DNA of 45,680 nt from Nitrospiraceae bacterium (GTDB lineage: Bacteria > Nitrospirota > Thermodesulfovibrionia > UBA6902): positions 1 to 45,680 of the forward strand of contig QZKO01000011.1 in the NCBI GenBank assembly GCA_003599505.1, in the 5' to 3' direction. The translations under genes and the position numbers were made by a program. The first letter of the stretch is position 1; each line of letters opens with the position of its first letter. Of this stretch, positions 22,520 to 25,472 are shown one piece after another. The notes beneath the pieces are model-generated. The model was not told the DNA's origin and did no database searches. It saw only the letters and a list, made by a program, of their open reading frames with translations.

Positions 22520-23077
22520 TTATTTCCCCATCGCTATCTCCGCTATCCTCGTGTACTTCGCTCCAGCGGGACTTAACTCGCTTTTCATGAAAGATATTGT
22601 TCTGACATTTATAAATCCGAACTCTCTGTCTTTGTTCAGCTCGATCTCCTCCAGAAGCGGTCCCTTTCCGTATGAAGACCTGAACCTTCCAAGGGTAAGA
22701 TGGGGGGAGAATTTGCGGTCTTCTTTTTCAAATCCGAGCGACGCCATCCGGTCCTCAACTTCCTTCCGGAGCCCTTCGAGAATTGTGTTTTCTGAAACAC
22801 CGACCCATAATACGCGCGGGGCCTTCATGTTCGGAAAAACACCCGCGCCTTTGATTTGAAGATCAAAACACGGATATTTCCTGCAGGTCCCCTCTGTTGC
22901 CTCTATAATTCCGGCTGTATTTTCATCGGCAATATTGCCCAGGAATTTCAGCGTCAGGTGGATGCCCTGAGGTCTCGTCCATCTCACATCCGCCCCGCCC
23001 TTCTTAAGCTCCTGCTGAAACCCCGACAGGGCGGATATTACCGCTTCAGGCAATTCTATTGCAATAAAACTTCTCAA
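22520..23077 (-). CDS. thpR: RNA 2',3'-cyclic phosphodiesterase (LigT/ThpR)
   Basis: The 185-residue 2H-family enzyme opens RNA 2',3'-cyclic phosphates. Both HxTx motifs are present: IHLTLKFLG near 40-48 and PHLTLGRF near 124-131. MRSFIAIELPEAV is the usual N-terminus. It is the first gene of the thpR-recA-pilus ATPase-recX run. Its physiological substrate is generally not known. Upstream is the degraded region with the dndD fragment. Confidence 0.95.
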   Translation of the reverse strand: MRSFIAIELPEAVISALSGFQQELKKGGADVRWTRPQGIHLTLKFLGNIADENTAGIIEATEGTCRKYPCFDLQIKGAGVFPNMKAPRVLWVGVSENTILEGLRKEVEDRMASLGFEKEDRKFSPHLTLGRFRSSYGKGPLLEEIELNKDREFGFINVRTISFMKSELSPAGAKYTRIAEIAMGK

Positions 23078-23244: not shown

Positions 23245-23400
23245 TCAATATTGCCACCTAACTTGATGTCCTGCATGTGGAAGATATTTCTCAAACAGCG
23301 CCCAGCGATTCTTTTTATCAAGCCTCCCCACAGGGGTATCAATAACAATAGGGAATTCTCTGCCGGACGCTTTTGACAAAGTCCATAAAGGGGAAAGAGG
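23245..23400 (-). pseudogene. 3' fragment of dndD (DNA phosphorothioation ATPase)
   Basis: Fifty-two codons, starting immediately after the stop of the HNH enzyme gene, read LWTLSKASGREF, then PIVIDTPVGRLDKKNR, then FEKYLPHAGHQV before diverging and stopping. This is the end of the DndD family: the Walker B and D-loop region IDTPxGRLD followed by the (Y)FPxAxHQV strand. There is no start and no upstream coiled-coil or Walker A. It reads as a remnant after a deletion that joined the two genes. Homology is judged by eye on about 40 residues. Confidence 0.75.
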
Positions 23401-24363
23401 TTATTTTAGGAGTTTGTTTTTTCTGTGCCAAGCGAATGCTTCTACAGCAGGATAAGACGAGTCCTTATTGGGAAGCAAGATTGATTTTCCTACCAACTCT
23501 GTGAGTATCCATTCGGTCGGTCTTTTGGAACTCATAAGAGGGCTAACTAAAATGGAATAGTTTTCATCAACACTAATCAAACCCTCATCAAATGTCCAAT
23601 GATGTAATTTACACAAGGCGAAACCATTCCGTACGTCATCATTATACGAAACGCTGAAAGGAATTATATGTGCAGCATCAACAACTGATGCTCCTTCAAG
23701 GGTTAATATTCTGGTTTTACATATGGAGCATGTGTAATTATAAAGGGACATGATTGCGTGTCTGAAGCCAATCTCCCGGACAGCTTGTCTCAATATTTTT
23801 TTGCTTTTACTTTTTTCTGCCAAGAAGGGCAGGTTAGTATCGCTTAAAAGAAACTTTTCATATTTCATCGCCTTACGATTTAAATTGATGATGTCAACTA
23901 AATTTTTCTTTTTGTCAGAATCAAAATAGGTATTAATTATTGCCTGTCTAAAAGCAGTTCTGTTTTTATCTGATAAAAGAATGGCGAATAACTCTTCATT
24001 AAGATAAGCATATTTGATCATATCTCTGATTTGATAGCTCGATTTAATGTGCCGGATCAAGCTAAACGATTTCTCAAATCCAGCGTTTGGGACCAAGTGC
24101 CAAAAAAGATCGCTCTTTAAATGGAAAAAGGGTAATGCGACTATCCCCTTTTGATCGGGATAGAGAGCGTTCCAATAACTCAGAAAAGTTGACACTATCT
24201 CTGGAGTCAAAACAATTTCATTTGTGGAAATAATGCCTTGTTCGATCAGGTCAATTATTGAAAGAAGTAATATGGGCTTGTGCGGGGCAGGTCTGCCATG
24301 GCTTCTGTCTATCCGTAGATGTGCAAACTTCTCGATATAATAATCTAAGTTTTTCTCAGCCAT
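23401..24363 (-). CDS. SBD-HNH restriction endonuclease (phosphorothioate-DNA dependent type)
   Basis: The 320-residue protein has an N-terminal domain with GRPAPHKPILLLSIIDLI (23-40), the signature of sulfur-binding domains in ScoMcrA-like type IV enzymes, which bind phosphorothioated DNA. A C-terminal HNH nuclease follows: C212 and C215 (YTCSICKTR), DAAHIIPF (229-236), and NGFALCKLHH with C251 (246-255). All nuclease residues are present, so it looks active. Such enzymes cleave DNA modified by Dnd systems. The gene is AT-richer than its neighbours, is followed at once by a dndD fragment, and lies in a degraded island, suggesting acquisition by transfer. Confidence 0.82.
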   Translation of the reverse strand: MAEKNLDYYIEKFAHLRIDRSHGRPAPHKPILLLSIIDLIEQGIISTNEIVLTPEIVSTFLSYWNALYPDQKGIVALPFFHLKSDLFWHLVPNAGFEKSFSLIRHIKSSYQIRDMIKYAYLNEELFAILLSDKNRTAFRQAIINTYFDSDKKKNLVDIINLNRKAMKYEKFLLSDTNLPFLAEKSKSKKILRQAVREIGFRHAIMSLYNYTCSICKTRILTLEGASVVDAAHIIPFSVSYNDDVRNGFALCKLHHWTFDEGLISVDENYSILVSPLMSSKRPTEWILTELVGKSILLPNKDSSYPAVEAFAWHRKNKLLK

Positions 24364-24685: not shown

Positions 24686-25087
24686 CTACCCGCCGGGAAT
24701 GCTTTTAAGGTATTCCTTCATCCGTCTTATAAATCTTTTTGAATTCTTAACAATCTTTTCAGCCGTTTCTTTTTCAATGACAATTTTAGCGTTATAATCA
24801 CACTCTTCTCTCTTCCTTCTGATATAATCAAATATCTTTCCGTATTCAACCTCAATAATTTTGTTCTTTATGAAATACTGATTGAATGCCGCTTCGACTC
24901 CAGAGTGTTTTGATCTGTCAAGTTTCTTCGTTAGCAAGACAGCAGTGGTAATGCTGAACAGTGAGTAATATGCACGATTTACCGCTGCTCTGTATCTCTT
25001 AAGTGATAACAGTTCTTTGGCGGTTTTAACATCCTCTTCAGCCCGTTCTAAGCGGACTTTAATAAGCTCTCTTGTTTTTTCGTCCAA
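24686..25087 (-). CDS. HEPN domain protein (MNT-HEPN toxin partner)
   Basis: The 133-residue all-helical protein matches HEPN: ERAEEDVKTAKELLSLKRY, then AAVNRAYYSLFSITTAVLL, then the RREECDY-type segment and a final helix. HEPN proteins paired with minimal nucleotidyltransferases are often RNase toxins silenced by AMPylation. The classic RxxxxH is not intact here (R-x4-D-Y instead), as in the PF05168 branch, so nuclease activity is uncertain. The start is a TTG overlapping the MNT gene by 40 bases; no better start exists. Low GC fits the island. Confidence 0.82.
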   Translation of the reverse strand: MDEKTRELIKVRLERAEEDVKTAKELLSLKRYRAAVNRAYYSLFSITTAVLLTKKLDRSKHSGVEAAFNQYFIKNKIIEVEYGKIFDYIRRKREECDYNAKIVIEKETAEKIVKNSKRFIRRMKEYLKSIPGG

Positions 25088-25407
25088 ATGTCAATTCCAT
25101 CCCTGCGGATATTATTGTAAAAAGGGTCCCGGTTTTTTCTGTACCAGTCAAACGTGCCCTCATCCATAACGATCGGTGAAAGCACTATATTATTTTTAAG
25201 CATTATTTCATAAGCAGACATACTTATCTCGTCTTTTATTTTTTGATTGCTGTCCGCAATTACTATTAAGATATCCGCATCGGATTCTTTATCGAATTCC
25301 CCTCTTGCGACAGAGCCAAACAGAATAACCTTTAATATCTTTGCGCCATAATGCTTCTTGAGTAATTTTAAGTAAGCGTTGATAGCTTTATTCAGGTTCT
25401 GTTTCAT
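25048..25407 (-). CDS. Minimal nucleotidyltransferase (MNT antitoxin type)
   Basis: The ATG at 25407 gives 119 residues with the pol-beta-fold signature LFGSVARGEFDKESDADILIV (GSx10DxD), the nucleotide and metal site. MNT proteins in this pairing AMPylate or otherwise restrain the HEPN partner encoded downstream with overlap. A TTG 19 codons upstream (25464) is an alternative start. Codons are A/T-ended, unlike pgpA next to it. It begins 66 bases after the pgpA stop on the same strand. Confidence 0.87.
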   Translation of the reverse strand: MKQNLNKAINAYLKLLKKHYGAKILKVILFGSVARGEFDKESDADILIVIADSNQKIKDEISMSAYEIMLKNNIVLSPIVMDEGTFDWYRKNRDPFYNNIRRDGIDIWTKKQESLLKSA

Positions 25408-25472
25408 GGAAAATTTGACCGGGTTTGATACTAAGATTATAAATATCTTATCCGGTTTAAGCAATTATTTTT

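Follow-up and report, generated by a model that had tools for sequence, protein, structure and literature searches.

The window, a stretch of 45,680 nucleotides from the genome of a Nitrospiraceae bacterium (G000), carries an intact gene for a predicted phosphorothioate (PT)-dependent restriction enzyme, here called the reader, lying among the remains of a dnd operon. It is probable that the reader was for a long time housed inside this operon, that successive deletions erased the PT writer and spared the reader, and that the enzyme would now restrict incoming PT-DNA. The locus thus gives a direct look at how a cutter of PT-DNA outlives its tagging system in a Nitrospirota bacterium. PT-cutting readers and PT-adding operons should not coexist, and the few adjacent cases were previously unexplained, dead writers having been suggested as one possibility (PMC7461809). 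The window and its relatives offer concrete examples of a dead writer with a reader under selection and with relics that date the loss, and broken Ssp and Pbe genes were also found beside unrelated readers, giving a simple and testable rule, that wherever a reader lies within a PT operon the writer is expected to be dead. The type of enzyme is already known; the interest is in its recurring setting, in the remains of the writer and in the selection acting on the reader.

The reader enzyme

The original prediction of an HNH enzyme carrying the signature of a sulfur-binding domain (SBD) held up, as GRPAPHKPILLL was found at residues 23-34 of an HNH open reading frame of 320 codons, whose N-terminal domain is, by sequence and predicted fold, an SBD. 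The protein matched the NCBIfam model PT-DNA_restrict over its whole length (NF045808, E 4.2e-35) and Pfam HNH_2 (PF13391, E 2.9e-11); its NF045808 score of 121.3 bits does not reach the curated cut-off of 180, and it represents a divergent subfamily of this narrow "exception" model. The top sequence match in the PDB was SBDHga (8h0l, E 2.1e-18), and a profile built from ten relatives of the reader reached 8h0l (E 4.2e-25), ScoMcrA (5zmo, E 9e-7, and 5zmm) and SprMcrA (7cc9, E 3e-4, and 7ccd and 7ccj), with the nuclease part of the profile matching TagI. In an AlphaFold (AF2) model of the reader (pLDDT 87), Foldseek aligned the N-terminal half with 8h0l (TM 0.86, by target) and found the remainder to resemble modification-dependent HNH enzymes.

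The sulfur-pocket residues H28, K29 and P78 of the reader align with H116, R117 and P165 of ScoMcrA, which have been shown to matter, and the position of R117 is a lysine in most homologues (PMC6224610). The lid position occupied by Y164 in ScoMcrA is L77 in the reader and is also a leucine in SBDHga, which was solved with PT-DNA, and Y164 is present in only 7 of the 23 homologues shown in PMC6224610. The HNH catalytic and zinc residues C212, C215, H232, N246, C251 and H255 were invariant in an alignment of the reader's relatives. In known enzymes the SBD holds the sulfur-modified site while the HNH domain cuts nearby (PMC6224610, PMC7461809), and the reader would act likewise, its SBD capturing a sulfur-modified backbone site and its C-terminal HNH domain cutting close to it.

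SBD-HNH PT-dependent restriction enzymes comprise EcoWI, SprMcrA and their relatives, fewer than 3.6% of which are encoded near dnd genes (PMC7461809). Like these enzymes and SBDHga, the reader has an SBD followed by an HNH domain with no SRA domain and keeps the His, Lys and Pro of the pocket, but it forms a subfamily of its own and lies inside a broken dnd operon. With ScoMcrA, an SBD-SRA-HNH type IV enzyme (5zmm), it shares the SBD fold, the pocket and the HNH domain, differing in the missing SRA domain and in the leucine at the lid. The wHTH(SBD)-SAD-HNH proteins encoded in Dnd loci, which have been treated as partners of working writers (PMC10853773, Nucleic Acids Res 2024), are similarly SBD-HNH nucleases genetically tied to a dnd operon, whereas the reader lacks a SAD/SRA domain and the writer is broken or gone at all four loci described below. 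A search of the plasmid collection gave no hit of more than 43% identity, and most plasmid members of the family sit in unrelated surroundings, for example in Nostoc and Hymenobacter; a search of viral contigs gave no relatives of the reader and none of the DndD of genome G265.

Remains of the dnd operon and related loci

G265, which belongs to another family of the same class, has an intact operon of dndC, a 219-aa gene, a DndB-like gene, dndD (675 aa) and dndE::HerA, and differs from the window in having no reader in it. The operon type with DndE fused to HerA is known (PMC10853773) and is the source type of the relics in the window, where it is present as fragments only (Table 1).

Table 1. 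Features at the reader locus, in window coordinates unless another locus is named
Feature	Position	Strand	Remarks
thpR (2'-5' RNA ligase family)	22520-23077	(-)	chromosomal flank
dndE::HerA fusion relic, last ~35 codons	23262-23159	(-)	frame-shifted relative to dndD relic
dndD relic, 47 codons, C-terminal Walker-B region	23400-23260	(-)	PIVIDTPVGRLD...LPHAGHQV; TIGR03185, PADLOC
SBD-HNH endonuclease (reader), 320 aa, intact ORF	24363-23401	(-)	predicted phosphorothioate-dependent type IV restriction enzyme
Possible dndD-start scar	24382-24364	(-)	AAATGCTCTGGCAATTTAG; just before reader ATG; shortened against G006
DUF2442 relic (partner of DUF4160/DhiT)	24589-24384	(-)	5' end lost, one-base frameshift
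HEPN protein	24686-25087	(-)	PF05168, E 1.6e-18
MNT nucleotidyltransferase, antitoxin-like	25048-25464	(-)	island flank; PF01909, E 1.9e-10; same place in G001
pgpA	25937-25473		other chromosomal flank
Constrained dndC and dndE::HerA segments (G001 against G006)	L025 1808-2752, 4333-5802; L022 6670-7996, 9565-11049

Directly after the stop codon of the reader, the same register continues for 51 codons and then stops, and this stretch matched TIGR03185 (E 7.9e-16, model positions 563-607 of 650) and the PADLOC DndD model (E 7.1e-19). A remnant of 52 DndD codons, fused end to end with the reader, had been proposed here. The DndD match is borne out, but the homology covers only 47 codons, ending at 23260, and the RWQY and stop which close the stretch are out-of-frame DNA of the dndE::HerA relic. 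Likewise the fragment does adjoin the reader stop in the same register, but there is no protein fusion, as the fragment lacks a start codon and is cut off from the reader by a TAA; any meaning in the shared register was rejected, this being a one-in-three coincidence with a stop codon in between. The fragment also lacks the Walker A and coiled-coil features of full-length DndD, scores below the model cut-off, and is to be regarded from its sequence as a relic and not as a DndD gene. It is 87% identical over 46 amino acids to the full-length DndD of G265, with 7 amino acid differences in 47 and nucleotide differences by codon position of 9/3/33. The PADLOC scores for DndD (7e-19) and PbeC (3e-18) are close, and its assignment as DndD rather than PbeC follows from its being nearest to the DndD of a dndC-dndB-like-dndD-dndE::HerA operon and from the dndE::HerA relic next to it.

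The relic is larger than was originally described, as it takes in dndE::HerA and DUF2442 relics and a possible scar of the dndD start. The dndE::HerA relic is 78% identical to residues 456-495 of the G265 DndE-HerA (E 1e-13), and its DNA is 80.6-83.7% identical to that of genomes G006 and G001. The DUF2442 relic gave tblastx matches of 86-89% over 56 amino acids to G001 and G006, with a one-base gap in the alignment, and the intact G001 copy of this gene matches PF10387. In G006 the 23 bp before the reader ATG agree with the opening codons of dndD from G265 at the collinear place (21 of 23 bases, E 0.003); the equivalent is present in G001 and G409 and is shorter in the window, and this match points to entry of the reader at the start of dndD.

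Comparison with relatives made clear what has been lost, through a syntenic and fuller reader-plus-dnd island in G001 and the intact G265 operon elsewhere in the class. G001 has, at the same chromosomal site (pgpA-MNT-HEPN ... thpR-recA), a larger but also broken island of dndC, DUF4160, DUF2442, reader and dndE::HerA, in which dndC is without ~105 N-terminal residues and the end of the HEPN gene is joined by a deletion to this 5'-truncated dndC. G006 (L022) has the gene order of G001 at another site, with a frameshift in dndC and a stop in dndE::HerA, and in G409, from another family, DUF2442 and the reader are accompanied by a remnant of DUF4160 and a stub of dndE::HerA. The arrangement is common to four loci in two families, with dndD missing and the reader kept in 4/4; the four readers are 70-86% identical, and that of the window branches first in their tree. 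In G165, a congener of G409, the reader has been lost by an internal deletion except for its last ~19 codons, and the DUF4160-DUF2442 pair and a dndE::HerA stub are retained. The dndE::HerA relics of the window (23262) and of G409/G165 (L081, 8577; L110, 7406) share their first codon (GGN, residue ~461), even though the deletions in the window and in G409/G165 look independent from the tree.

In G003, G004 and G009 pgpA adjoins thpR, which represents the empty site. In G006 the site of the window's island (L093, G006:C73, 3691-6827) has an MNT-HEPN pair and a 573-aa gene before thpR but lacks dnd genes, which shows that the presence of MNT-HEPN at this site does not depend on the island.

Selection on the reader and the timing of writer loss

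The reader is under purifying selection, with pN/pS of 0.15-0.28 across the window, G001, G006 and G409 and dN/dS of 0.08-0.14 in unsaturated pairs, and the SBD and HNH domains are conserved while the linker is variable. The DUF2442 and dndE::HerA relics still look constrained (pN/pS 0.09-0.30). In a neutral-drift simulation the conservation seen in the dndD piece had a probability of at most 2% at 0.15 or more substitutions per site, so that neutral drift beyond 0.15 is rejected for this piece, and the synonymous divergence of the readers is ~0.9-1.7, with synonymous sites near saturation in several comparisons, which makes the dates rough. The death of the window's writer is therefore recent and falls long after the separation of its island from the others, which means that the reader and the writer were operon neighbours for a long time.

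The genome of the window, a draft of 87 contigs, is 95% complete, and searching it for DndC, DndD, SspB and SspD gave nothing beyond the relic, in keeping with the proposal that the host has no modification of its own. Nor did any of 37 genomes from the family of the window carry a full DndD. Among 396 Nitrospirota genomes an SBD reader occurs in 9, DndD in 10 and both in 0, which is consistent with mutual exclusion but lacks power as only 0.2 overlaps would be expected by chance. In G000, G001, G006 and G409 the PT writer genes are absent or broken, leaving no working Ssp or Dnd system that the reader could partner in the manner of SspE.

That a deletion had kept the reader of a locus once holding both writer and reader is largely supported by these relics, with the correction that there were several deletions and not one. 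The reader would have entered a dnd operon (dndC ... dndD - dndE::HerA) with or behind the DUF4160-DUF2442 pair and remained there. In the lineage of the window, successive deletions would then have taken dndC, DUF4160, most of DUF2442, dndD except for 47 codons and dndE::HerA except for ~35 codons, going up to the borders of the reader but no further. As far as the known routes found here go, the host would now be unable to make PT, and with no PT writer in the cell the reader may act without self-damage. If expressed and PT-dependent in its cutting, it would be of benefit in restricting PT-marked plasmids, phages and islands arriving from PT-positive neighbours, and protection of this kind against incoming phosphorothioated DNA is plausible.

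Alternative histories and other broken PT operons

The reader may instead have inserted into dndD in place of the body of that gene, adopting its start region and at once disabling the writer, whose activity would have made the reader suicidal. The dndD-start match directly before the reader ATG in G006, with its equivalents at the other three loci, would fit such an event, as would the dndD C-terminus directly after the reader in the window and the readers found elsewhere right behind truncated ATPase genes (a 160-aa SspC stub in G003 and a 112-aa PbeC stub in Candidatus Chlorohelix) or, in G010, between an SspB stub and sspD. However, if dndD had already died in the ancestor that the four loci share, much more drift would be expected in the window's fragment, for which drift above 0.15 substitutions per site is rejected while the synonymous divergence of the readers is ~0.9-1.7, and in G013 a methyltransferase and a helicase fill the same ssp gap with no reader. 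Because dndD of the window died only recently, a dndD that was kept downstream and deleted later is favoured over one displaced immediately, and we consider immediate displacement unlikely, if not strongly so. It is more doubtful that the reader is carried along neutrally in a defence island of constant gene replacement, its survival being meaningless; the loss of the reader in G165, the varied defence genes filling broken PT operons (as in G013) and a synonymous divergence suggestive of cassette movement between families are as such turnover would predict, but a reader that is full-length in four genomes, with low pN/pS and conservation concentrated in the SBD and HNH domains, is not.

The long residence of the reader in the operon followed by successive deletions, which we prefer, has several findings counting against it. 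The reader scores below the NF045808 cut-off, and synonymous sites are close to saturation. The reader is not always kept, being lost in G165, and simple decay leaves unexplained the constraint on dndC and dndE::HerA between G001 and G006 (dN/dS ~0.06), despite the absence of dndD from both with the same junction. This constraint and the common dndD-free junction could instead point to a DndD-less system in which DndC, the SBD-HNH protein and DndE-HerA cooperate, the nuclease replacing DndD, with the window holding its remains. We think this very improbable, as dndC is now broken in both genomes (by truncation and frameshift), dndE::HerA of G006 has a stop, only these two examples are known and dndD was constrained in the lineage of the window. 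The joining of unrelated pieces during metagenome assembly could be imagined for a draft genome in 87 contigs, but is hardly credible and was rejected by synteny, since the order MNT-HEPN-DUF2442-reader-dndE::HerA-thpR-recA was matched at the same site in the independent genome G001; similar relics also recur in G409 and G165.

Rather tentatively, and with more doubt than belief, we suggest that PT readers repeatedly replace the large ATPase gene of PT-linked operons (dndD here, sspC in G003 and G010, pbeC in Chlorohelix); if true, such a reader-for-writer swap would reuse an old operon and abolish the very modification that makes the reader lethal. G003 and G010, of the window's family, have an intact but distant reader (24-25% identical, and over the NF045808 cut-off) by a truncated ssp gene. 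In G003 (L084, G003:C20, 6897-10069) an intact sspB and the sspC stub precede the SBD-HNH reader, with sspD beyond, and in G010 (L085, G010:C61, 6794-8247) the sspB stub is of 101 aa and sspD starts at the contig end. G013 (L133, G013:C107, 575-5034) makes it less likely that only readers occupy broken PT operons, as the stubs of sspB and sspD there lie on either side of the methyltransferase and a 1043-aa helicase-like gene, and since many readers also lack such neighbours the pattern is suggestive and no law. The closest plasmid relative of the reader (43%) is that of Candidatus Chlorohelix (L112, NZ_CP128401.1, 4615-12913), where a 5'-truncated pbeA and the pbeC stub precede the reader and a dndBCDE set of normal length follows on the other strand, so that a reader and a writer may coexist on this plasmid. 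On plasmids of Picosynechococcus PCC 8807 and PCC 7117 (L119, L125) a reader lies near an unannotated dndC without its N-terminal part, and DUF2442 directly precedes dndD; in PCC 7117 dndD is reduced to 62 codons and the 298-aa reader ends just before an IS1 element.
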